Positions 3,609 through 21,651 of a DNA stretch of 22,704 bases are shown piece by piece. The notes below the pieces were generated by a model. That model made no database searches. It was not told where the DNA came from and worked only from the letters and a program-made list of their open reading frames with translations. The stretch is from a virus. The stretch is taken from positions 1 to 22,704 of the IMG/VR virus record IMGVR_UViG_3300021962_000698. One strand, given 5' to 3'. Numbering within the stretch: the stretch's first letter is position 1; the number at the start of each line of letters is the position of its first letter. The position numbers and the translations under genes are program-made.

Positions 3609-5462
3609 TTATGGGTCAGCCAAAAACAGTGGAGCATCGCAAATGTTCCCATAAACGTCATAGTAGTGATTGCCATCGTAAGTTGTCCAAATTTCTCTAA
3701 TTCTGTGAATCGAAATCCATCCACTTAGCGAAGTGTAAGGAGTAAAATCAAAAAAGCCAATACTACCGGGCTGGTTTATGTATGTAGTTTGCAATGTATT
3801 TTCACCATACAGAGAGCTTACAGTTGCTTCAATAGCAGAAAGATAGTATGGAGAGCTTCCAACAGCACCATTTGTTGCATCGCATCTTATAGGATCCCAA
3901 TTAGAACAGATAGCATTACAACTATTTGAAGAATACTGGATAATTCGTGAAGGGTAAGTAACTGAAAAAGGCTCCTGATCATTAGTTTGGATTATATATG
4001 GTTGGGACATTTGTACATAAGTGCCGGTTCCATGTTCATTGATTCCTGCTAGATAAAAAGTATAATAACCACATGGTACGCCGCTATATGTAATACTTGT
4101 GATAGAGGGGGGTAAAATTTGCGGGTTAAACATAAGACCGTCTTCAGGAACTCCACAATCAGGAGAATAAAATATACCACCGGGACCATCATTATACGTT
4201 ACAGGAATTCGATTGAATTGTTCATATGCAACAAGTCCTCTAAGAAGAGAGTATCCCGTGATGTCAGATGGGCTAGTTGCAGACCACTCAAATCGAATAT
4301 GTGCTCCACTATTTGCACATTCGGGTAAATTGTATAAACAATCCCGTACAGAGTACTCGTCAACATGAGCAGTAAACGAAGAAATTTGTGGAGTTAAAAA
4401 AGCGTTAGCGTTACACGCAGCTTCGCATTCTTCTTGGGTGTCAAATGGACCAGAAACAGAGCATCCAGGTGTAATTGGGCTTTCTTCAAAATATAAACAC
4501 GTTGGTGGATCGCATTCTGGACCAGAGACGCAGTAATATCCAGTATATGGATTAGCGGTGGTAGTAGGCGCAACAGTGGTCGTTGGTTCACCAGTAGTCG
4601 TTGGCTCACCAGTAGTCGTTGGCTCACCAGTGGTCGTTGGCTCACCAGTAGTCGTTGGCTCACCAGTGGTCGTTGGCTCACCAGTAGTCGTTGGCTCACC
4701 AGTGGTGGTAGGCTCACCAGTGGTGGTAGGCTCACCAGTGGTGGTAGGCTCACCAGTAGTAGTCTTCCAGTCGTCTGGGTCTACTTCTGGCAAACATTTG
4801 TCTGGATCAAAGTCACAAATACTATGAATTTCTAATATCAGTGTTTTGTCTTTTATGTTGATTTTTTTTATGAAATCTTGCTGACTCAATGTTAATTTCT
4901 TGAACAGAATAGTAGCAGTGTTTGCTCCAAAGTATTTCTCAGCAATAAGTAAATTGTCTTCTTTGACTCTTAAAGCCATTTTTATTCTGTTTTTGAGTTC
5001 AAAAAAGTTATCTCTATAATCATCACCAGTTTCATTTAACTGGTCAACAATTTGAATAGAATAATTATCTAAGTACAGATCATCTGCATTAGACATAGTT
5101 TCTGATATTGTTTTAAACACCTTACTAGATTGAAGATATACATCTTCTGAGTGCAGATAAGTTACAACAATTGAAGAATTACATGTACCTATAAGTGTTG
5201 GTAAGTCATAAATACCCCATGAGCCATTCTCATTTGTAATCTGACTATAATTAGTGCCGCTACTTTTGGCAATGTACAATTCTCCACATGGACAATCATC
5301 AATGTCTCTTGGGCATTCTACTCCACTTTCTGGAATAACTATATAAGAAGTTAAATCTTCTGAAGGGCTTAGAGTTGTAGTTGTGGTGGTAGTAACTGTG
5401 TCCGCTGGGGTGTATGATATATACGGCTTCCGTGGTTTAGCGCATCGTTTTGGTCTTCCCAT
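3609..5462 (-). CDS. Cys-rich virion protein with Thr/Pro hexapeptide-repeat linker, 617 aa
   Basis: The protein has a basic N-terminus and a short Thr run at residues about 23-31. An N-terminal domain of about 200 residues contains a CPRDIDDCPCGELY cluster. Residues 234-293 are ten perfect TTTGEP-type hexapeptides, followed by TTTVAPTTTANP. A Cys-rich segment at about 305-354 ends in GPFDTQEECEAAC, and an apparent Fn3-like beta domain (about 355-470) plus a long C-terminal region follow. The Thr/Pro tract should be an extended flexible stalk between an anchored N-terminus and displayed C-terminal domains. There is no signal peptide or membrane segment. It sits between two fibre genes, 12 bases after the stop of the 1033-residue fibre, so a role on the virion surface is likely. 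The start at 5462 has AAGGAT upstream. I do not recognise a specific family. Confidence 0.75.
   Translation of the reverse strand: MGRPKRCAKPRKPYISYTPADTVTTTTTTTLSPSEDLTSYIVIPESGVECPRDIDDCPCGELYIAKSSGTNYSQITNENGSWGIYDLPTLIGTCNSSIVVTYLHSEDVYLQSSKVFKTISETMSNADDLYLDNYSIQIVDQLNETGDDYRDNFFELKNRIKMALRVKEDNLLIAEKYFGANTATILFKKLTLSQQDFIKKINIKDKTLILEIHSICDFDPDKCLPEVDPDDWKTTTGEPTTTGEPTTTGEPTTTGEPTTTGEPTTTGEPTTTGEPTTTGEPTTTGEPTTTGEPTTTVAPTTTANPYTGYYCVSGPECDPPTCLYFEESPITPGCSVSGPFDTQEECEAACNANAFLTPQISSFTAHVDEYSVRDCLYNLPECANSGAHIRFEWSATSPSDITGYSLLRGLVAYEQFNRIPVTYNDGPGGIFYSPDCGVPEDGLMFNPQILPPSITSITYSGVPCGYYTFYLAGINEHGTGTYVQMSQPYIIQTNDQEPFSVTYPSRIIQYSSNSCNAICSNWDPIRCDATNGAVGSSPYYLSAIEATVSSLYGENTLQTTYINQPGSIGFFDFTPYTSLSGWISIHRIREIWTTYDGNHYYDVYGNICDAPLFLADP
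4584..4763 (-). repeat. 18-bp tandem repeat, 10 copies, coding for a Thr-Thr-Thr-Gly-Glu-Pro tract
   Basis: Ten in-frame 18-base units run without interruption (180 bases). Units 2-7, counted from 4584, alternate at one Thr codon (agtagtcgt then agtggtcgt on the plus strand), giving a 36-base higher-order period. Units 7-9 share a different agtggtggt codon set. The pattern points to at least two separate expansion events of different unit size. All differences are synonymous, so protein sequence is conserved while copy number can change. Confidence 0.95.
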
Positions 5463-9297: not shown

Positions 9298-9323
9298 GTG
9301 TATACATCTACTATCTTATACAC
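9298..9323. repeat. Inverted repeat of the GTGTATA motif in the leader of the 227-aa gene
   Basis: GTGTATA occurs on the plus strand at 9298-9304 and on the minus strand at 9317-9323, separated by 12 bases. The minus-strand copy is the promoter-like octamer. The dyad could be an operator, a leader-RNA stem or a chance divergent copy; sequence alone does not decide. Confidence 0.45.
9316..9323 (-). promoter_or_regulatory. Candidate late promoter octamer before the 227-aa virion gene
   Basis: Minus-strand GTGTATAA followed by G. It lies directly after the T-tract of the terminator that closes the capsid module and about 42 bases before the ATG at 9273. No -35 hexamer is recognisable; its place is taken by the terminator stem. 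This placement fits a unit that stops one transcript and starts the next. Confidence 0.55.
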
Positions 9324-9357
9324 AAAAAAAGCCGCCCCCAATTAATGAGAGCGGCTT
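9324..9357 (-). terminator. Rho-independent terminator after the major capsid gene
   Basis: Reading the minus strand, AAGCCGCTCTC (9357-9347) can pair with GGGGGCGGCTT (9339-9329) as an 11-bp stem with two G-U pairs and a 7-base loop, followed by a run of seven Ts (the last two bases of the stem are also T). It lies just after the capsid gene stop, a classic intrinsic terminator layout. Confidence 0.92.
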
Positions 9358-9378: not shown

Positions 9379-10386
9379 TTAGAATGAGCCAAGAATGACT
9401 CTTCTATTATCTAGAACACCAAAGCCGAGTTCTGCAAAGCCATAGTAGCCAGCACGCTGCTGACGATGGAGAGTTGGGTCTTCGAAGACCTGTAACTGCT
9501 CCTTGACTGGCATTACAAAGCTATCATTTGTGGACTGATCAAGACCAACAACAAGCTCAACATCACTTGCCTGAACAGCACCTGAAAGCTCATTGGTGAA
9601 GAAGTCCTGATATTCCTGGCCTTCGCCTAGTTCATCGAGGTCATGAAGGTTAACACCAAAGATTCTGGTGATTGGAGCACCGTTTTCTGGAGCGGTGTAG
9701 ATCTCACGACGAGTTACTTCGTCAACCTGATCAAGACCCCAGTTACGGATATCCTCAAGAGCTTCTGGTGAAACATAGAGGTCAGTAAGACGACCACGAC
9801 CAACTGAAGCACTATTACCACCTGAATTACGACGCATTACAGTCTGCATAAGAGAAACGAGTCTCTTACTGAAAAGACCAGCAGTTGCGTCACCGTCATA
9901 AACGAGAAGATTACGATCAACACCGGCAGCAAGAAGTGTGTGCCAACCGTCATCGTTCATCTTCTTTGTGAAGCCAGCTTCCATAACCTGCATGGCACGA
10001 CCAACAATATCCCATCTTGCTTCACGGGCATAGCGAAGTAGATAGTCTACTGATGATGCAATGCTATAAGTTGGAATCATCACATAATCGCCTTCAACTG
10101 AACGCTCTGGAATTCTACCATGACCAGGATTGGTATAAGCAACATGCTCACCTTCAAGGCCAGGGGAGATAAGATCGAGAGGATATTCAGTTGTTGCCCC
10201 TGGTTCTACATTAATGGTTTCAAAAATGTTACCAAGGATATTACCGACAAGAACACCCTTACGAAGTGGGAGTTCAAGAGCTTTTGCAAACTCACGCTGT
10301 GCAGCCTGAGCTACATTGATGTCCGCATCCCCTGACTTACGTAGGAGACTTAGGAATTCATCACTAGGTCTAGTATTTAATGGCAT
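9379..10386 (-). CDS. Major capsid protein (HK97-fold type), 335 aa
   Basis: Position after portal, protease-scaffold and a decoration-type gene identifies this as the major head protein. The sequence fits an HK97-type subunit of usual size: a helical N-arm (residues 1-45), an EYPLDLISPG region, a long helix near 130-150 (DIVGRAMQVMEAGF), a surface domain with LTDLYVSPEALEDIRNWG, and a C-terminal FAELGFGVLDNRRVILGSF. I chose the ATG at 10386 because AAGGAG lies 9 bases upstream. The in-frame ATG 21 bases further upstream would place this ribosome-binding site inside the gene and has no site of its own. A strong terminator follows. The fold is inferred, not aligned. Confidence 0.92.
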   Translation of the reverse strand: MPLNTRPSDEFLSLLRKSGDADINVAQAAQREFAKALELPLRKGVLVGNILGNIFETINVEPGATTEYPLDLISPGLEGEHVAYTNPGHGRIPERSVEGDYVMIPTYSIASSVDYLLRYAREARWDIVGRAMQVMEAGFTKKMNDDGWHTLLAAGVDRNLLVYDGDATAGLFSKRLVSLMQTVMRRNSGGNSASVGRGRLTDLYVSPEALEDIRNWGLDQVDEVTRREIYTAPENGAPITRIFGVNLHDLDELGEGQEYQDFFTNELSGAVQASDVELVVGLDQSTNDSFVMPVKEQLQVFEDPTLHRQQRAGYYGFAELGFGVLDNRRVILGSF

Positions 10387-10418
10387 AGTTAAATTCTCCT
10401 TTTTCATGGAATTAAAAG

Positions 10419-10889
10419 TTAGGGGAGGTTGATTTCTACTTTTGCATAACCATCTTCGTCCTTTGAAGAAAGGAAGCGACCAACCTGTAGCACACCTGAG
10501 CTACCTGGAGAGTCTTTACGAAGATTGCCAGCAGTTACATGACAAGCATAAGCTGGATCACCAGCTGATGGTGTACCTGTAATGCTATTAGTTACAACAT
10601 ACCCCTTACGGAGAACTGTAACCTTCCCACCCTTCTGCACTTCGTCTTTGTGCTGATTTAGGTGAGTACGAGTAAGATCCTTGTTAACTACGTCGTTAAG
10701 AAGAATACCAACTGGAACCACTGCTGAAGTAGCAGCCTGATACTTAACAAGGTTTACACCCTGATCCATAGCTGCACCTGAACCAGCAGTTGAATCGTGA
10801 CTTACAACACCGCCACGGGTAGCCGTGCCAGCATTGTAGAAGAAACTGATATCAGTCTGTAGTTCAAATCTATCTGATTTTAGAGCCAT
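10419..10889 (-). CDS. Head decoration / capsid-stabilising protein, 156 aa
   Basis: This small beta-rich protein is encoded between the protease-scaffold and the major capsid gene, the standard place for a decoration protein. Features resemble DUF2190-like or lambda-D-like head proteins: a GGVVSHDS segment near residue 26, VVPVGILLNDVV at 57-68, KGGKVTVLRKGYVVT at 86-100, GDPAYACHVTAGNL at 110-123, and VGRFLSSKDEDGYAKVEINL at the C-terminus. The ATG at 10889 has AGGAGAT upstream with good spacing. It would bind the outside of the expanded capsid. No catalytic motifs are visible; the assignment rests on position and general pattern. Confidence 0.7.
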   Translation of the reverse strand: MALKSDRFELQTDISFFYNAGTATRGGVVSHDSTAGSGAAMDQGVNLVKYQAATSAVVPVGILLNDVVNKDLTRTHLNQHKDEVQKGGKVTVLRKGYVVTNSITGTPSAGDPAYACHVTAGNLRKDSPGSSGVLQVGRFLSSKDEDGYAKVEINLP

Positions 10890-10907: not shown

Positions 10908-11558
10908 TCACTTATGTAGTACGTTGTTTTCTAGCCATTCGGCCACACTAGCTCTGGTAGCTTGTAACTCATCTGTGTCGTCAGACGCATCAACAAGTGT
11001 TGCTTCTGTTGACTTAACATCCTCAAAAAGTTCTTCTGATACTTCTTCTGCCTGAGCGTCCTCTTCTGCCTGAGCACATTCTTCCGCTTTGCCCTCTTCC
11101 ATCTTTTCATGCTTTTTAGCCTTCATCTTCTTGTTGTACATAGCAACAATCTGACTGAAAGCTTCATCTTCTAGGGCATCATAAAGAGCTAGTGACTGTT
11201 CTGCTTCTTCTGGCTCAAAACCAGCTTCTACAAGACTAGCTTTACGCATGTTGTCTCGCTGCTCTTTCTTCATCTTATTCATTTCCTCTTCCTTCTTTTT
11301 CATTTCTTCGTCCTTGGCGGCAATAGCTTCTTCAAGAGACTTTACGGCCTCTTCTGCTGATGCTACTTTTTCCTGAAGTAAAGAAATTTCCTCTGACTTG
11401 GCTGTTACATCGCTTTCAAGGCTAGCAATTGTATCAGCATATTCTTTATCTTTTGCAGCTTCAATCTGGGCACGAATGGCCTTGTTTTCTTCTTGAGCAG
11501 ATGCCAACTCTTGACGAGTTTCAGCTAACTGCTGCTCTAAAACATTGTTATCAGACAT
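10908..11558 (-). CDS. Nested scaffold protein from an internal in-frame start, 216 aa
   Basis: At codon 264 of the protease-scaffold gene there is an ATG at 11558 preceded by AGAAGGAG, 8 bases of A/T sequence away. This is a better ribosome-binding site than that of the full-length gene. Initiation here would give only the coiled-coil segment, starting MSDNNVLEQQLAETRQ, without the protease. Phage lambda makes its scaffold Nu3 from an internal start in the protease gene C, so the layout has precedent. The start falls exactly at the domain boundary. That it is used is an inference. Confidence 0.6.
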   Translation of the reverse strand: MSDNNVLEQQLAETRQELASAQEENKAIRAQIEAAKDKEYADTIASLESDVTAKSEEISLLQEKVASAEEAVKSLEEAIAAKDEEMKKKEEEMNKMKKEQRDNMRKASLVEAGFEPEEAEQSLALYDALEDEAFSQIVAMYNKKMKAKKHEKMEEGKAEECAQAEEDAQAEEVSEELFEDVKSTEATLVDASDDTDELQATRASVAEWLENNVLHK

Positions 11559-12347
11559 ATTAATATCTCCTTCTGATTCTACACTAGTAAACGTTTCATT
11601 TAAAGAGAAAGCTTTGCTAGCATCAAGGATAACACTTCTTGGATTAGCCGGTCTAGAAACTAAACCTTTACCAGAAAAAGAGATATCTCTTAATGATCTA
11701 CCAATTTTATAGCCTTCGTACTCTCCCGTACCACCATACGCCCTTAAATGTTTTGTTAAAAAGGATGATTCTTCTGATCTGGCAACTATTTTAGCGTTGC
11801 CTTTAGTATCTACTACTGAATAATCAAATCCAGCAAATAAACACTCCATAGAAACGAACCACTTACCTTCTTCTATTTCTGCTATGATTTGTTGCATACG
11901 TTGACGATTTTCTGCATTAGTCCAACTATTGTACAAAACCGCCTCGGTTATAATATCAAAACTTTCAGGAGCTTCTGTTGTATCTTGAGCTATAGCATTA
12001 CCTTCTCTATCTACAACATAACAACCAGTAATATGCCCGATGATATCATTTTCATCGTGCATAAAATTAAATTGTTTATCTTCTGGAGTTGTTCTAGCAG
12101 CCCAAGTTTCTGCTGGAGAAAAAACATCATCATTCTTGTTCCAACCAGTAGATACAAGAACTGATTTAAGATAATATAAATCAATCTGTTTTGGGTTTGC
12201 GCTTTCTGCTTTAATTTTTGCAAAAAACGCATCATCTGAACTTGCTGGTTCAGATAGAATAATAGCAGGAGAACAATACGCTACAGAAACATCTGCACGT
12301 ACCTTCTCCGCTACGCCATCTAGAATTTCTTGTTGATATATTTTCAT
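10908..12347 (-). CDS. Prohead maturation protease with C-terminal scaffold domain, 479 aa
   Basis: Residues 1-250 look like a phage prohead serine protease: the FNFMHDENDIIGH segment supplies a candidate catalytic His97, and WFVSMECLFAGF supplies candidate Ser166, as in S78/U35-type enzymes. SLRDISFSGKGLVSRPANP follows, a typical C-terminal element of that domain. Residues about 264-479 form a long charged coiled coil rich in Glu, Lys, Ala and Gln, expected of a scaffold that lines the procapsid and is digested on maturation. A GTG 33 bases upstream is in frame but lies inside the promoter-like octamer and has no ribosome-binding site, so I chose the ATG at 12347, preceded by GAGAGG at rather long spacing. 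The gene lies between portal and decoration genes. Confidence 0.87.
   Translation of the reverse strand: MKIYQQEILDGVAEKVRADVSVAYCSPAIILSEPASSDDAFFAKIKAESANPKQIDLYYLKSVLVSTGWNKNDDVFSPAETWAARTTPEDKQFNFMHDENDIIGHITGCYVVDREGNAIAQDTTEAPESFDIITEAVLYNSWTNAENRQRMQQIIAEIEEGKWFVSMECLFAGFDYSVVDTKGNAKIVARSEESSFLTKHLRAYGGTGEYEGYKIGRSLRDISFSGKGLVSRPANPRSVILDASKAFSLNETFTSVESEGDINMSDNNVLEQQLAETRQELASAQEENKAIRAQIEAAKDKEYADTIASLESDVTAKSEEISLLQEKVASAEEAVKSLEEAIAAKDEEMKKKEEEMNKMKKEQRDNMRKASLVEAGFEPEEAEQSLALYDALEDEAFSQIVAMYNKKMKAKKHEKMEEGKAEECAQAEEDAQAEEVSEELFEDVKSTEATLVDASDDTDELQATRASVAEWLENNVLHK
11556..11574 (-). promoter_or_regulatory. Internal ribosome-binding site and start codon for scaffold
   Basis: On the minus strand this reads AGAAGGAGATATTAATATG. 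A near-consensus Shine-Dalgarno lies 8 bases before ATG, inside the protease-scaffold reading frame and in the same phase. Chance placement of a site this good exactly at a domain boundary is unlikely. Confidence 0.65.
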
Positions 12348-12372
12348 AGTGTTTGATTTCCTCTCATCAACA

Positions 12373-12380
12373 TTATACAC
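12373..12380 (-). promoter_or_regulatory. Candidate late promoter octamer before protease-scaffold gene
   Basis: Minus-strand GTGTATAA followed by T (so it contains TATAAT), about 25 bases before the ATG at 12347 and just after the portal stop. A T-rich tract precedes it. With a 16-base spacer ACGACA is a partial -35 match; otherwise none is visible. It could add transcription of the capsid genes beyond read-through from the packaging operon. Confidence 0.55.
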
Positions 12381-12401
12381 AAAAAGAAAAATATGTCGTA
12401 A

Positions 12402-14456: not shown

Positions 14457-16445
14457 TTAATACACATCTTTCATCTGATCAGTGAACCAGCTTGGTCCAG
14501 AGTAATAATTTTCGTTTTCAGCTTTAGACCTAAACTCTCCACCTCCAGCAAACCCGCCATAAAACTTATATTCCTGTTGTTCTGGGGTTCTCTGTATAAT
14601 TCTAGCCGCCATATTAGCCATAAGTAAAGCAGAATAACGGTCTTTTCTCATCTTGCTCTTTCTTCCTGTACCAATAACTAATTCAGGTGTATCCCATCTA
14701 TCTCTACCGCTATTGGTTTGTGTCATCTGTATCATAGCTAATTCATCTTTAAGCTCTTCTATATCCATAACGCAGTCTTCAAGCGTGTCAAACATCCTAT
14801 TCTTTATACCATCCTCTGATATTGACAATCCAATTGTTATTGAGTCAAAAAATGGAAAGATTAGCACTTTATCTTCAAAGTCCTTACGCATACCATGATT
14901 AGCTTCAGCTAGCCAGTCATACTTAGCAAACTGACACATTTCTATAATATGTAGACCACGCTCTCCATCTGTGTCTTTTGGCTTATTATCATCAATAACT
15001 GGCCAAAGTGCCAATTCTCCTTCACGTATCTTATCTTTATCGTGAAGAGACTCAGTAACAGCAACACCGCCACCCTGAGCGTCAATTGCTATATGTACAC
15101 ATGGAAAAAGTTTCATTAAATCTCTAATCTTACGCCCACAATAGGAATAGAAATCAGTTTCCGCTGAGTACCCCTTCTTTACCATCTCTTTATGTTCTGA
15201 TCTTGTTGTAGTCCAGCAGTAAACAATCCTTCGATGATCTGGATGAACTTCTAGAACAACAATGCTAAAATTATCCACTTCAGACGCAGGGTCAACACCA
15301 AAGATATACTTTCTCTCAGGATTTCCAATTAAAGCGGCCTGGAAGCTGATTTCACGCCCTTGGCTATCTTTAATGGTGTTTGAGTCATTGACAACACAAG
15401 ACTCGATTAAAGAGCGTTTAAAGAAACCCTGTGAGTCTCTTGTAAAACAAGCCCCATATTCCATTTGATAAATACCAGAATGTACAGTAGCTTTAGATCT
15501 GGCCACCTGATCAGCATCCATGAAGCCTTTTGGTAATAACTCATATGGTATACGTATAATAGAGTATTGTTTCCAGTCAAACGTGTCTGGAGCTTCTTCT
15601 CCACCAAAGATCTCCTTTAATCTTTGTCTATCACCCTTACTTTGAACTATAGCTTTCCATTTCTTCCAATATGTCGCAAAGTGGTTAAAATCATAGTATG
15701 CCGTGCCAGAAAGAATGATTTGATTGTCTTTCTTGTACTCTTTCTTTTCTTCGACTTCTAGTTCGACACCAAGCTCTTGAGCCTTTTTTTGCGCAGCTAA
15801 ACGCTTTACATTTTCTACTGGATCTGCGCTAACAGCTGCGAAACCAGCTACAACGTTCTCAAAAATTTCTCTAGGTATAGAAGCAAACTCGTCTGCAAGA
15901 ATATCATTTGCTCTCTGACCTCTAATTTTCTGACCATCACCAAGAGGTAAACATGTAATTGTGCTTTCGTTTAACCTTAGTACACATCTATCAGTATCTC
16001 TACGTGGACCGCTATCAGAATCGCACAAATCTCTAAGCATGGGTGAATTACGCCACATCGTCTCCATATATTCAAAAATAACCTTAGACTGTCTAAATGC
16101 AGCACCAACGACAACAATTTTTCTACGTGGCAGCACTAATGCTCTTAGAACGGCGTATAGAGAAAGCATAAAAGATTTACCAAACCCTCGACTAGCAATA
16201 AGCATCGGAAACTTCCTATTCCATATTTCGTTAAGAATCAGCGCTTGCGATGGAAGTAGATTTATTCCAAGTATGTGATGAGCAGTAAAGGAAAGATACT
16301 CTGGCCTCGTCATGAGGTAAGCTAATCTAAGATGAAAATCATCATCACTGGGATTGAGCATAGCCATAGGATTGAAAACATTTGTTTCAATCTCATCAAT
16401 ACCAAGCCAAGCTTCGTCAATTGTTTTTAGATTGTTTTTTACCAT
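14457..16445 (-). CDS. terL: Terminase large subunit (packaging ATPase and nuclease), 662 aa
   Basis: The motor pumps DNA into the prohead through the portal and cuts it. Motifs are clear: Walker A SRGFGKS at residues 85-91, Walker B with catalytic acid DILADE at 181-186, coupling motif ILSGTAYYDFN at 244-253, and a RNase H-like nuclease domain with D385 in FGVDPA, D455 in AIDAQGGG and D602 in KDRYSALLMA as the likely metal ligands. A helical insert rich in Lys and Glu lies at about 212-240. The ATG overlaps the end of the ClpP-like gene by 7 bases, so the two are probably translationally coupled, and the portal gene follows after 42 bases. Confidence 0.98.
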   Translation of the reverse strand: MVKNNLKTIDEAWLGIDEIETNVFNPMAMLNPSDDDFHLRLAYLMTRPEYLSFTAHHILGINLLPSQALILNEIWNRKFPMLIASRGFGKSFMLSLYAVLRALVLPRRKIVVVGAAFRQSKVIFEYMETMWRNSPMLRDLCDSDSGPRRDTDRCVLRLNESTITCLPLGDGQKIRGQRANDILADEFASIPREIFENVVAGFAAVSADPVENVKRLAAQKKAQELGVELEVEEKKEYKKDNQIILSGTAYYDFNHFATYWKKWKAIVQSKGDRQRLKEIFGGEEAPDTFDWKQYSIIRIPYELLPKGFMDADQVARSKATVHSGIYQMEYGACFTRDSQGFFKRSLIESCVVNDSNTIKDSQGREISFQAALIGNPERKYIFGVDPASEVDNFSIVVLEVHPDHRRIVYCWTTTRSEHKEMVKKGYSAETDFYSYCGRKIRDLMKLFPCVHIAIDAQGGGVAVTESLHDKDKIREGELALWPVIDDNKPKDTDGERGLHIIEMCQFAKYDWLAEANHGMRKDFEDKVLIFPFFDSITIGLSISEDGIKNRMFDTLEDCVMDIEELKDELAMIQMTQTNSGRDRWDTPELVIGTGRKSKMRKDRYSALLMANMAARIIQRTPEQQEYKFYGGFAGGGEFRSKAENENYYSGPSWFTDQMKDVY

Positions 16446-17062
16446 TTATTCACAACTCTATCAGCAAAGCCATAGTACACCGCTTCTTCCGGCTCCATAT
16501 ACCAATCGCCATCTTTAAACTTCTTTATCAAGTATTTTTTAGTCTTGTCTTGATCGTACTCTTTTTCTTTAAAGAATTTTCCACGACAACATCTTTCAGC
16601 ATAAATATCTAGCATTTGGTCAAAAATTTTCTGTTCAAAATTTATCCAGTTCTGCACATTTCTATACTCTCCGCTAATTCCACTCATTCCATTATGAACC
16701 ATGAAGTATGAGTGTGGTGTTAAAAGCCTCCTTGTGGCGGCTTGTAGTATTATACTACTCATAGACTCAGCTTGACCATACACAATAATTGAAACTTTAG
16801 AGTGACACATTTTTATTCCATCAAACATAGCCATTCCATCTGCCCACTCTCCACCAATACTGTGCATATGTACAGTTATTTCATCATGACTTTCTACTTC
16901 TAGTGATCTAAGATTTTTTATGAAGATATTCGACATTTTGTATTCAACGCCAGGATTTTCATCGAAAGCATGATGATTATGAAGAAATATCTCTCTAGTA
17001 TTTGTATAACAACCGTAATTGTGAACATCATGCAACATATCATTGTTACTATGCGGCATCAT
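16439..17062 (-). CDS. ClpP-like serine protease, 207 aa
   Basis: The fold and catalytic residues match the ClpP/crotonase-type protease family: SIGGEWADGMAMFD at 68-81 (oxyanion region), Ser100 in GQAESMSS, His123 in MVHNG, and Asp186 in GDWYMEPEEAVYYGFAD, which aligns with the E. coli ClpP element RDRFLSAPEAVEYG. An N-terminal extension of about 40 residues is His/Asn-rich. In some phages a ClpP-type enzyme is the head protease, but this genome also has a protease-scaffold gene, so the job here may differ, for example processing another virion protein or working with host Clp ATPases. ATGA overlap with the ERCC4 gene and 7-base overlap with terL point to one operon. The start may be either of two adjacent ATGs. 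Confidence 0.9.
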   Translation of the reverse strand: MMPHSNNDMLHDVHNYGCYTNTREIFLHNHHAFDENPGVEYKMSNIFIKNLRSLEVESHDEITVHMHSIGGEWADGMAMFDGIKMCHSKVSIIVYGQAESMSSIILQAATRRLLTPHSYFMVHNGMSGISGEYRNVQNWINFEQKIFDQMLDIYAERCCRGKFFKEKEYDQDKTKKYLIKKFKDGDWYMEPEEAVYYGFADRVVNKW

Positions 17063-17816: not shown

Positions 17817-18061
17817 AGTTCTTGTATTTTGTCAAACCTAATTTTTTTCCTAATATTTCTACACAAAACTCTTGTTGTAATTGAATTATCTATTTTTAGT
17901 AGCTGGTTTATAATCCTAAGTAGTAATTCACAGCAAACTTCATCTGGATCATCAGCCTGTATAAAAATAGTTAAAAACGGTGCATCGAATTCTCTGAGTC
18001 TATACTTCTCTATTTCTCTGAAAATATTAGATAAGTCTAGGCTGACTTTAAAGTTTCTCAT
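17813..18061 (-). CDS. Hypothetical protein, 82 aa
   Basis: I do not recognise this protein. It is acidic in the middle (QADDPDEVCCELLLRI) and basic at the C-terminus (CRNIRKKIRFDK), with predicted helix and one or two beta strands and no signal peptide or membrane helix. The ATG at 18061 lies inside the end of the dehydratase gene, overlapping by 14 bases in another frame, and its stop overlaps the HNH start by 4 bases. This arrangement suggests a real, translationally coupled gene. It may be a partner of the HNH nuclease. Confidence 0.7.
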   Translation of the reverse strand: MRNFKVSLDLSNIFREIEKYRLREFDAPFLTIFIQADDPDEVCCELLLRIINQLLKIDNSITTRVLCRNIRKKIRFDKIQEL

Positions 18062-19109
18062 GCTCTAGCATCATTTCGATTAAACTTGTTAGATCGTTTT
18101 TAGGTTTCCATCCAAGTTTTGCTTGAGCTTTAGTAGAATCCCCTCTAAGGTAATCTACTTCTGCTGGCCTGTAAAACTCTGGATCTTGAACGACTAGGTA
18201 AGACCAATCGTCCAGCCCAGCCTTTTCGAAGGCTATATCTAAAAAATCTCTGATTTTGTACGACTGACCTGTACATATAACGTAGTCATCGCCGTGTTCC
18301 TGTTGCAGCATAAGCCACATAGCTTCGACATAATCGCCAGCATATCCCCAGTCTCTATATGCTTCAAGATTTCCCAAACGCAGCTTAGGAAAGCTATTCT
18401 GAACTCCAGAAGCGTATATCAGGTCGCCTTCCTTGCAAGATTCTGAAATATTATCGACACTTAGATTCATTTGTCTTAACCAAGTTGTGAATTCTCCAAT
18501 CCACTTAGTAATTTTCTTGGTAACGAAATTATCACCCCTTCGTGGACCCTCATGATTAAATAGAATACCAGTACTAGCATGAATTCCGTAAGCTTCACGG
18601 TATAACCTAACAGCGTAATGAGCGGCACATTTAGCAATTGCATATGGAGATTGAGGTAGGAATTTAGTATTTTCGTTTTGGTATTTTTTACCGTCTCTAC
18701 CGATGTCATAAGAAGCTCCAAACATCTCACTGGATGACGCTTGGTAGAACTTTACATTTAGCATATCCAAATCAACTAATGCCTGTAACAAATTAATACA
18801 TCCCTTACCCGTAACATCCCATGTTAATGCTGGTTGTTTGAAGGATGTTCCTACATGAGACTGCGCCCCAAGGTTGTAGATTTCATCTACATCGGCGTTA
18901 TCTTTAAGAATAAGCAAAAGACTAGACATATCGGTAAGATCACCTTCCACCAAAGTGAATCTAGGATTCGATATGATGTGCTTGATTCTTTGCGTATTGT
19001 CTGTACTAGACCTCCTAGATATGCCTACAACTTTATATCCCTTCTCAAGCAACAAGTCTGCCAGATGGCTTCCATCCTGCCCTGTTATTCCTGTAATTAT
19101 AGCTTTCAT
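18048..19109 (-). CDS. gmd: GDP-mannose 4,6-dehydratase, 353 aa
   Basis: This enzyme turns GDP-D-mannose into GDP-4-keto-6-deoxy-D-mannose, precursor of fucose, rhamnose, perosamine and related sugars. It is full length and well conserved: NAD(P)-binding GITGQDG at 7-13, SRRSS at 31-35, active-site ASSSEMFG at 124-131 with Tyr156 and Lys160 of the YxxxK pair, LFNHEGPRRGDNFVTKKI at 183-200 for nucleotide-sugar binding, and RDWGYAGDYVEAMW later. The start at 19109 has GTGAGG upstream and forms an ATGA overlap with the sulfotransferase. No epimerase/reductase such as fucose synthase lies in the window, so the product must be finished by the host or by genes elsewhere. Confidence 0.97.
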   Translation of the reverse strand: MKAIITGITGQDGSHLADLLLEKGYKVVGISRRSSTDNTQRIKHIISNPRFTLVEGDLTDMSSLLLILKDNADVDEIYNLGAQSHVGTSFKQPALTWDVTGKGCINLLQALVDLDMLNVKFYQASSSEMFGASYDIGRDGKKYQNENTKFLPQSPYAIAKCAAHYAVRLYREAYGIHASTGILFNHEGPRRGDNFVTKKITKWIGEFTTWLRQMNLSVDNISESCKEGDLIYASGVQNSFPKLRLGNLEAYRDWGYAGDYVEAMWLMLQQEHGDDYVICTGQSYKIRDFLDIAFEKAGLDDWSYLVVQDPEFYRPAEVDYLRGDSTKAQAKLGWKPKNDLTSLIEMMLEHEKL

Positions 19110-19726
19110 TTTTTCCTCACTTTTGAATATCCAAAACGTAAAAAATCCTGTTCATATAGTTCATACACTCGCTCAAGAGCTTGATCTGAGTAAGCATCTA
19201 AATAATTTTTCCATATTTTAGAAGCTTTTGTTATAGCGTGTTTGGCTGGACCAAGATAAATACCATGAGAAGCACAGTCACTAGATAGGTTCTCTAACCT
19301 AATTATATTCATTCCGTCTTCATAGAAATTAACCTGATGACCAAAATGATTTCTTGTATAATCCTTATTGTTCCGATCAATGTAAATTTGTAATTGTTCC
19401 ATAATGAAAGTTTCAAAATCAAACTTCTTATCTATACTATTGTAGTAGTAAGCTGATAATATTCTTTCGTATGGGCGACGAACTGTAATGTATTTTTTGT
19501 ATGTTTCATGATTTATGTTTTTGATTTTATAGAATCGTAAATCGGCATGATGTAAATATATGTTTGACTTTCTGCAAAGTCCGTACATAATGTCATAATT
19601 TGCCTGTAGTGGTGAAATTTCTTTGTGATTTTTACCCAAAAGAGTCTTCATTAGGGTATATTCTACACTTGTTCCTCCAGTTTTGCCTGGATGCATAAAT
19701 AAAATTTTGTGATCGTGGAAAATCAT
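19106..19726 (-). CDS. Sulfotransferase family protein, 206 aa
   Basis: Sulfotransferases move sulfate from PAPS to a sugar or protein hydroxyl. The PAPS-binding loops are visible: HPGKTGGTSVEYT at residues 12-24 (5'-phosphosulfate loop) and ITVRRPYERILSAYYYNS at 80-97 (3'-phosphate loop). The overall size fits the Sulfotransfer_2-like group. The stop overlaps the start of the dehydratase gene (ATGA), which suggests that both enzymes act on the same glycan. The substrate is not known; a deoxy-sugar on the cell surface or on the virion is a possibility. The ribosome-binding site is weak, so translation may depend on the upstream gene 21 bases away. Confidence 0.85.
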   Translation of the reverse strand: MIFHDHKILFMHPGKTGGTSVEYTLMKTLLGKNHKEISPLQANYDIMYGLCRKSNIYLHHADLRFYKIKNINHETYKKYITVRRPYERILSAYYYNSIDKKFDFETFIMEQLQIYIDRNNKDYTRNHFGHQVNFYEDGMNIIRLENLSSDCASHGIYLGPAKHAITKASKIWKNYLDAYSDQALERVYELYEQDFLRFGYSKVRKK

Positions 19727-19747
19727 CTTATTTATCTTTATTTGAGG

Positions 19748-20533
19748 TCATTCCCTGACTGTATCGGGTGTTAAAAATGGTTGATCTACAACTCCGTCCT
19801 CATATTTATGGTAAGATCCGAGTCTTTGTTCTTCTTTTTTCATTGCTATCTTCATTTTTTCCATTTCGATCCCGTACTTCTTCATTTTTTCTGGATCTTG
19901 CATCAAGCTTGCGACCCATGATACAAAACTTTGCTTACTATCTTCCAATCTTTTGATTCTTTGCTCTCTTGTGCCCTTCATTTCCTTTAACATGGACGAT
20001 TTTTTCGCTTGAAGCTCACGATAGTCCTTGTTTAGACTCTCTTGTGCTGCTCTAAGACTCGCCATTTGTCTTTCTAATCCAATAATTGTATCCTGATTCT
20101 GTTGGTCACGGTCAAGTTGCCGTTCTTCATCTAAAAGTTTCTCATAAACGTTGAGATATTCTATGTTATCCTTGTTTGCCTTTAGGCAGCGGTTCATGAG
20201 AAGCTCCAGTTTGATAACATCTATTACTTGTAGTTCTTCAGTGGGGAATACGTCGTCCTTGAACTGGGCGATTATGCGTGACCAATGATATTTGAACAGT
20301 TCAAGTTCATCGGATGTGAATTGATTTTGCAATTCTAACCAATATGGGCGATCCTCTAGTGAAAATGCGGCAGCTTCCTCCCCCGTAATACCTACTCTAA
20401 ACTTCCTTTTTATAAAATCAATGACAGATTCTACGTCACGATCAAGGTGTTTGGCTATATCTTCTGGTGTCATGCTATCTAAAAGCCTAGCAATTATCCG
20501 TTCTTCCTCTTTTGAGATTCTACCCTTCCTCAT
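19748..20533 (-). CDS. Helix-turn-helix / coiled-coil protein, candidate terminase small subunit, 261 aa
   Basis: The N-terminus has a homeodomain-like helix-turn-helix (residues about 6-45: SKEEERIIARLLDSMTPEDI, then AKHLDRDVESVIDFI). A middle helical region (FTSDELELFKYHW) precedes a long charged coiled coil (about 125-235). DNA-binding head plus oligomerising helices is the plan of small terminase subunits, which recognise phage DNA and present it to TerL. The match is only in layout: I see no diagnostic motif, and terL lies about 3.3 kb downstream, not next door. A scaffold-like or regulatory DNA-binding role is possible. The ATG at 20533 has AAGGA upstream. Confidence 0.6.
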   Translation of the reverse strand: MRKGRISKEEERIIARLLDSMTPEDIAKHLDRDVESVIDFIKRKFRVGITGEEAAAFSLEDRPYWLELQNQFTSDELELFKYHWSRIIAQFKDDVFPTEELQVIDVIKLELLMNRCLKANKDNIEYLNVYEKLLDEERQLDRDQQNQDTIIGLERQMASLRAAQESLNKDYRELQAKKSSMLKEMKGTREQRIKRLEDSKQSFVSWVASLMQDPEKMKKYGIEMEKMKIAMKKEEQRLGSYHKYEDGVVDQPFLTPDTVRE

Positions 20534-20546
20534 CGTTGTTAATTCC

Positions 20547-21164
20547 TTACTTTTTTAAGATTGCGATATATATTCCATTCCACCAACTACTAGTATCGCC
20601 GTTTCTAGCTGAAAATAATTTTCTTTCTTCGACAATTTTTAGGTTGGCTTTCTCTATTCCGCTTTTTGTTCCAGCTTGTACGTGTTCTGGATTGTAATCG
20701 TCACATATGTAGATAAATGTATCATCTAAAACATCGTAATAGTGAGTTAGCGCCCGCTCTTGGTCCTCAAAGCTATGCTCACCGTCATAGAAATACACAT
20801 TAAACTTAGATTTTAAGTTAGAAACATCGACTTTGAAACAATCTTCATCTAGAAAGTCAAAATTCACCCCAACATCTTTCATGTTTTCAAAGAAAATATT
20901 CTTTATAGATCTACCTCCAAACAAATTGTTTGAGAAATTGTCAATTGCAAGTGCATATTCTGGACTATTTCCTACAAGTGCAGAGTAAAGTGTAGAGCCT
21001 TTCCATGTTCCAACCTCTAAATATCTTAAATTGTCAATAGAGCACACTTTGTTTAGCAAGTTTCGAACATTTCTACTAGACATACCATCTATTTCAAGAG
21101 CTTTTGGTGTTAGTTTTGTGTTTGGTCCTTTAGAATATTCAATAACATCATCAAGAATTATCAT
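20547..21164 (-). CDS. Class I SAM-dependent methyltransferase, 205 aa
   Basis: A Rossmann-fold methyltransferase: motif I YLEVGTWKGST at residues 48-58 binds S-adenosylmethionine, AIDNFSN at 73-79 is the acidic ribose-binding strand, and FYDGEHSFEDQ at 125-135 with ICDDYNP at 153-159 give the D-H type metal/active-site pattern seen in Methyltransf_24-like O-methyltransferases. Such enzymes often modify sugars or small molecules rather than DNA; there is no DPPY-type DNA-methylase motif. It overlaps the end of the sigma gene by 14 bases and has a strong AAGGAG inside that gene. With the dehydratase and sulfotransferase downstream it may belong to a glycan-modifying set. The substrate is inferred only. 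Confidence 0.85.
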   Translation of the reverse strand: MIILDDVIEYSKGPNTKLTPKALEIDGMSSRNVRNLLNKVCSIDNLRYLEVGTWKGSTLYSALVGNSPEYALAIDNFSNNLFGGRSIKNIFFENMKDVGVNFDFLDEDCFKVDVSNLKSKFNVYFYDGEHSFEDQERALTHYYDVLDDTFIYICDDYNPEHVQAGTKSGIEKANLKIVEERKLFSARNGDTSSWWNGIYIAILKK

Positions 21165-21651
21165 ATCCGTTCTCCTTTAGTATATGTTTTATAACCTGTA
21201 TAAGATGAAGTTTTCTCTTCTTTGGAATATAGGCATCACTTGTGAATTTTAGGTAGTCAGATCGGAACTCAACGGGCAAAAACTTGTCTATTATATGTTT
21301 TATGTCGTCCGTGTCCAGAATATCGTCAATGTTTGTATTTTTTTGTACAATCTGATCGTCTTGAGGTAGAGGTTTTGGGGCCATTATCTTCTTTTTGTCT
21401 TCATCGTCTTTAACAAAGAAGTTATCACGGACAAAATTCTTCAACCTGTTAGACAAATGTACCGATAGAAAGTTCTCAAGAGGGCGACTTGTGTCATAAC
21501 GATCAAGGGCATCCATACATATAATAAAAGCCTCTTGTTTTATGTCATCAATTTCATACCCTAAGAATGTGTACCTTGGGCTTATTCTATCAACAACTAT
21601 TGTTATTTGTTCGATGACCTGTGTTTCTGTCATGCCTTTGGGTATTTTCAT
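21151..21651 (-). CDS. Phage late sigma factor, T4 gp55-like, 166 aa
   Basis: Residues about 28-80 resemble sigma-70 region 2 in the reduced form of T4 gp55: FLGYEIDDIKQEAFIICMDA, then LDRYDTSRPLENFLSVHLSN and RLKNFVRDN. This is the part that binds the RNA polymerase clamp and melts the -10 region. A charged linker (82-105) follows, then a C-terminal helical segment (108-162) with FLPVEFRSDYLKF and YIPKKRK, a possible remnant of region 4 or a sliding-clamp-type contact. It lacks a full region 4, which fits promoters with only a -10-like element. It would redirect host polymerase to late genes. The start forms a TAATG overlap with the preceding gene and has AAGGA upstream. Confidence 0.82.
   Translation of the reverse strand: MKIPKGMTETQVIEQITIVVDRISPRYTFLGYEIDDIKQEAFIICMDALDRYDTSRPLENFLSVHLSNRLKNFVRDNFFVKDDEDKKKIMAPKPLPQDDQIVQKNTNIDDILDTDDIKHIIDKFLPVEFRSDYLKFTSDAYIPKKRKLHLIQVIKHILKENGYDNS

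Follow-up and report, generated by a model that had tools for sequence, protein, structure and literature searches.

A conserved internal ribosome-binding site at the putative prohead protease/scaffold junction of an uncultivated phage family

In phage lambda, the head protease C and the scaffold Nu3 are encoded in a single frame, Nu3 being made from an internal start, and the gene lies between those of the portal and the decoration/capsid proteins; lambda C is a protease of the S49/ClpP class. In phage Mu, the scaffold Z is nested in frame within the protease gene I. The UL26/UL26.5 pair of HSV combines a protease–scaffold fusion with a shorter scaffold of the same C-terminus, and UL26.5 is produced from its own transcript. 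An interaction between C and Nu3 has been described in lambda (PMC3224144). In HK97, the scaffold is not encoded separately but is one domain within the major capsid protein (PMC10275583).

Here we describe a locus of this kind in a stretch of phage DNA of 22,704 nt, the whole of which is referred to as the window (positions 1 to 22,704 of IMG/VR record IMGVR_UViG_3300021962_000698). The original prediction held that a ribosome-binding site located 8 nt 5′ of an in-frame ATG, at the junction of protease and coiled coil, would provide the scaffold separately, following the logic of lambda C/Nu3. Sequence and coordinates of the site are exact, and the nested frame and an internal start with its own ribosome-binding site are indeed present. 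The analogy did not extend to the protease itself, as the fused domain appears to be of the S78/herpesvirus rather than the S49/ClpP type. The features discussed below are as follows.

12372..12385, minus strand: TTTTTGTGTATAAT, promoter-like element ahead of the protease gene (family-wide match count)
12360..12365, minus strand: GAGAGG, a weak ribosome-binding site 12 nt away from the full-gene ATG (Shine–Dalgarno scoring)
10908..12347, minus strand: full-length gene of 479 aa, with the scaffold fused in frame to a putative prohead protease (open frame; fusion in relatives)
11613..12347, minus strand: predicted protease domain, residues ~1–245, candidate catalytic H97 and S166 (alignments, fold match)
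11559..11612, minus strand: low-confidence variable linker bearing the internal ribosome-binding site (pLDDT <50 for residues 246–268)
11567..11574, minus strand: internal Shine–Dalgarno sequence AGAAGGAG (GGAG kept in 228/229 relatives, two codon registers)
11556..11558, minus strand: internal ATG, predicted start of the short form, Met-Ser-Asp (residue 2 is Ser in 193/228 relatives)
10908..11558, minus strand: predicted separate scaffold protein, 216 aa plus stop (long helix and conserved C-terminal helix)
11226..11543, minus strand: coiled-coil helix, residues 269–374 (AlphaFold2 model, pLDDT ~74–87)
10917..10976, minus strand: conserved C-terminal helix, residues 458–477, common to both forms (model; consensus TRASVAEWLxNNVLxK)
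10419..10889, minus strand: cement/decoration protein gene (Phage_cement, E 1.3e-11), ribosome-binding site AAGGAG as at the internal start
9379..10386, minus strand: major capsid protein (MCP) gene (phrog_2522, E 3e-4), start probably ATG 10386
9315..9327, minus strand: second promoter-like copy, after the capsid gene (same position in 60% of 172 relatives)

The locus shares with lambda C/Nu3 a single frame with a predicted protease at its N-terminal end and a scaffold at its C-terminal end, an internal start and a common C-terminus, as well as the location between portal and decoration/capsid genes. Unlike in lambda C, the fused domain is S78-like by fold and a ClpP-like protein is encoded by a separate gene. 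No sequence homology to lambda C/Nu3 was found, and because the fused protease looks to be of the S78/herpesvirus type, the gene is regarded as a functional analogue of lambda C and not as a homologue. The likeness to Mu I/Z, drawn from the general organisation of that gene pair, lies in the in-frame nested scaffold. HSV UL26/UL26.5 offers a parallel in the combination of fusion and short scaffold, and the predicted protease fold matches herpesvirus proteases weakly; it differs in that the short form here has no family promoter-like element ahead of its start. The order of the His, Ser and PAN motifs resembles that of HK97 gp4 by eye, whereas HK97 lacks a separate scaffold. In Bacillus phage G, gp27 is a distant homologue of the major capsid protein and gp19 gives a structural match to the protease domain (E 5e-7), but gp19 stands alone with 300 aa; a profile comparison with gp19 found nothing.

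The most likely start of the full-length gene is ATG 12347, which aligns with the starts of relatives, and not GTG 12380 as picked by the ORF lister. The internal ATG 11558 shares its frame with the 490-codon ORF given by that program. The minus-strand sequence at the junction is GTAGAATCAGAAGGAGATATTAATATGTCTGATAAC; 5′-AATCAGAAGGAGATATTAAT-ATG-3′ comprises the internal Shine–Dalgarno sequence, a spacer of 8 nt and ATG 11558. In the AlphaFold2 model of the full-length protein, a globular part extends to about residue 245 and is followed by the linker at the site of interest (residues 246–268) and a helix of 106 residues (269–374). Beyond residue 374 the model contains two shorter helices, an acidic stretch of low confidence and the conserved C-terminal helix, which would be a candidate capsid-binding tail. 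Position and helix content suggest that the short form functions as a scaffold.

The fused N-terminal domain is likely a protease, as judged from its modelled fold and motif order. The candidate catalytic His and Ser (H97 and S166) are conserved in the same motif order as in HK97 gp4; together with H105, they are invariant in alignments A1 and A6 and in the divergent A8. Foldseek comparison of the protease-domain model (pLDDT 70.7, pTM 0.58) with viral prohead proteases gave E ~1e-7 to 1e-5 at prob 1.00, with TM values to the listed matches mostly of 0.3–0.5. In BFVD, 86 matches reached E ≤1e-3; the matches listed had prob 1.00, and several carry the name prohead protease or head maturation protease. 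In the PDB, several of the best fold matches of this moderate-confidence model are herpesvirus proteases, at E 0.1–0.8. By sequence, Peptidase_S78 (PF04586) remained below the family cut-off (2/28 members, best E 0.08), and no S49/ClpP-class match to the fused domain was found in Pfam or PHROG. A PDB profile search returned nothing useful, and a search by fold with the model of the whole protein was not informative, probably owing to the coiled coil.

With regard to the strength of the internal site, its duplex with the anti-Shine–Dalgarno sequence was calculated at −8.1 kcal/mol, the strongest among the starts scored in the window, compared to −5.8 kcal/mol for the start of the full-length gene; it should be noted that the anti-Shine–Dalgarno sequence used may not be that of the host. 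That the internal site is stronger than the full-gene start, as had been proposed, thus holds for the window and also for 145/192 relatives. The cement and MCP starts (the latter at ATG 10386) both scored −8.0 kcal/mol, equal to the internal site within error, and the portal and terminase starts scored −4.3 and −4.0 kcal/mol. The MCP ORF as listed (9379–10407, minus strand) starts at 10407, where there is no Shine–Dalgarno sequence; ATG 10386, preceded by AAAAAGGAG (AAGGAG), is the likelier start. The fraction of unpaired mRNA at the internal site was 0.473 versus a background of 0.459, a slight opening that is not persuasive.

A comparison with related phages had been proposed in the original prediction. 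Viral contigs were scanned five times and genome contigs once, which yielded 353 sequences with 229 distinct protease domains. The scans after the first used only peptide patterns within the protease domain; the first scan alone would be biased, because one of its patterns, DINMSDNN, overlapped the internal site. Where the protease domain ends, 228 of the 229 distinct relatives have an in-frame ATG with GGAG 5–12 nt 5′ of it. Loss of the site, which would have spoken against the prediction, is hence limited to one of these 229 relatives, which reach down to ~50% protease identity, and lineages that use another codon register keep it as well. The exception, L256 (3965–4700), is the sole relative without GGAG; its internal ATG is kept (MSIEID), and upstream of it there is only GAGAG. 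The spacing between GGAG and ATG is 8 nt in 137 of the 228 sequences, 6 nt in 61, 9 nt in 25, and 5, 11 or 12 nt in the remaining 5. It shifts through in-frame insertions and deletions, with GGAG retained. By comparison, of 1923 other internal Met codons in 196 related ORFs, just 19 (1%) have GGAG at a distance of 4–12 nt. When synonymous codons were shuffled at fixed protein sequence and with the codon usage of each gene, 52 of 228 sites were expected to carry the motif, and all 228 did. The occurrence of the internal ribosome-binding site is therefore, at the level of sequence, far above chance. No p-value is attached to the shuffling test because the sequences are related, and the register switches described below are the stronger argument. 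The fusion of protease and scaffold is intact in all 219 complete unique ORFs, and a search for split genes in the five viral scans and the genome scan found none.

The site is read in two registers. In register A, to which the group of the window belongs, it is read as xxA-GGA-G and encodes Gly-Glu/Asp (Gly-Gly in four cases). All 140 sequences use GGA for this Gly, although GGA accounts for 25% of the Gly codons elsewhere in these genes. A second group uses register B, in which the reading is xxG-GAG and the encoded peptide mostly Lys/Arg-Glu; here the Glu codon is GAG in 88/88 versus 24% elsewhere, and the preceding codon is AAG in 75/88, whereas at other positions AAG provides 45% of Lys codons. 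On a tree built from 149 protease domains, the register must have changed at least twice. The hexapeptide preceding the internal Met occurs in 135 distinct versions among the 228 relatives. As the ribosome-binding site persists while codons and peptide differ between the registers, conservation acts on the RNA. Downstream of the ATG, Ser occupies the second position of the short form in 193/228 relatives, compared to 2.8% after other internal Met residues. This position holds Ser, Ala, Thr or Pro in 219/228, whereas the wider set of Ser, Ala, Thr, Pro, Gly, Cys and Val follows 21% of other internal Met residues. Such a bias for Ser is as expected for a true N-terminus.

The order of the genes, TerL–portal–protease/scaffold–cement–MCP, does not vary among the relatives. 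Among their starts, GGAG is present at 100% for cement, 100% for MCP, 23% for protease and 16% for portal; the figure of 100% for the internal site is in part due to its definition, so that 228/229 is the fair value. Mean Shine–Dalgarno energies in the relatives are about −7.8 kcal/mol at the internal, cement and capsid starts, and weaker for protease and portal. For protease, portal, cement and MCP the best of the nearby ATGs was taken, which favours these four. Of 225 relatives, 80% have a family-specific promoter-like element, TTTTGTGTATAAT (≥11/13 match), before the protease gene; it precedes the portal gene in 46% of relatives, and cement and MCP in 0%. At the internal ATG its frequency is 0.4%, versus 1.9% at random positions. 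Since the element almost never precedes the internal start, the short form is most likely of translational origin, and the protease, scaffold, cement and MCP genes look like one transcription unit. Elsewhere in the window, a protein of 166 aa with sigma-70 region 2 (21151–21651, minus strand; Pfam E 2e-5) is a candidate phage late sigma factor, and one may guess that it reads the promoter-like element. The ClpP-like gene (16439–17062, minus strand) matches head maturation proteases of PHROG (phrog_94, E 5.8e-31) and is present in 12/17 long relatives; the family may thus carry two head proteases. Cargo-like genes upstream of the head genes (18048–21164, minus strand) encode GDP-mannose 4,6-dehydratase, sulfotransferase-family and methyltransferase-domain proteins. 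The ORF at 3609–5462 (minus strand) contains ~10 tandem TTTGEP repeats near 4558–4827 and is probably a tail or fibre protein.

These data need to be weighed against readings other than internal initiation. The motif could be a protein-level signal at the domain boundary, e.g. a self-cleavage site of the protease, that merely resembles a ribosome-binding site. The predicted flexible linker would suit such a signal, as would the conservation of Gly-Glu/Asp and Met within the main group. Selection on the peptide does not, however, account for the invariant GGA in that group, for the Lys/Arg-Glu with fixed GAG in the other, for the variety of hexapeptides before the Met or for the retention of GGAG across indels that alter the spacing. 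A protein signal as the sole explanation is very improbable and strongly disfavoured, yet it could coexist with an internal start. We consider it equally improbable that the short scaffold derives from its own transcript begun inside the gene, as for HSV UL26.5. A weak −35/−10-like pair at 11604–11576 is in line with this scenario but stays at chance level (7 found, 5.7 expected), and the family element, so common at the protease gene, is rarer than random at the internal start, even if other promoter types are possible.

The location at a domain boundary would also agree with a Shine–Dalgarno-like sequence that pauses elongating ribosomes, giving the protease time to fold ahead of scaffold synthesis, with no initiation taking place. 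Pausing needs no ATG at a set distance, and yet an in-frame ATG follows within 5–12 nt in all but one relative, mostly with Ser next to it; the strength of the site moreover equals that of the true starts of abundant proteins. Hence this explanation is given hardly any weight. Somewhat more credit, albeit still little, is due to a variant in which the short form is real but not a scaffold, the head being shaped otherwise and the separate ClpP-like protein acting as the maturation protease. The PHROG match of the latter and its presence in most long relatives fit such a division of labour. What makes it unlikely is the position between portal and cement/MCP, the long coiled coil, the conserved terminal helix and a ribosome-binding site equal to that of the MCP.

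We therefore regard it as highly probable that one transcript and one frame (12347–10908, minus strand) give two products, a protease–scaffold of low copy number and a scaffold of high copy number. Translation from the weak start at 12347 would yield few protease–scaffold chains (479 aa, ~53 kDa by residue count), and the strong internal start at 11558 would yield many scaffold chains (216 aa, ~24 kDa). Both forms share the coiled coil and the C-terminal helix, so the protease copies would be expected to co-assemble into the scaffold core. The fusion copies would then be carried inside the procapsid with this core, and the putative protease would digest the scaffold ahead of DNA packaging.

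The family is known from uncultivated phages, its longest related contigs measuring ~120–165 kb. No relatives of the protease domain were found in isolated phages (tblastn, INPHARED), and phage G provided the only distant capsid match among isolates. A host assignment from the genome-contig matches was dropped, as these involved three MAGs of unrelated phyla (SAR202, Flavobacteriales, Gemmataceae) and are probably mis-binned phage contigs. The consistent presence of GGAG throughout the family speaks for hosts that employ Shine–Dalgarno initiation.

A description of an S78 protease with a nested scaffold start was not found in the literature searched, the coverage of which was partial and which is weak evidence accordingly. 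Nesting of the lambda C/Nu3 type appears to occur in an uncultivated phage family with a different kind of protease. It is conceivable, if somewhat short of probable, that these phages combine a protease of the herpesvirus/S78 type with lambda-style translational nesting, and that four starts (weak for the protease; strong for scaffold, cement and capsid) set the stoichiometry under a single late promoter. If true, the locus would be a phage-side translational counterpart of UL26/UL26.5. The type of protease bears on the relation between head assembly in phages and in herpesviruses. Although not a new principle, nesting is legible here from sequence alone over ~230 distinct phages, in which the ribosome-binding site is fixed while codons and peptide vary. 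The operon offers a testable link between the strength of ribosome-binding sites and copy number. Gene callers that assign one ORF overlook the scaffold, which probably ranks among the late proteins that these phages make in the largest amounts.
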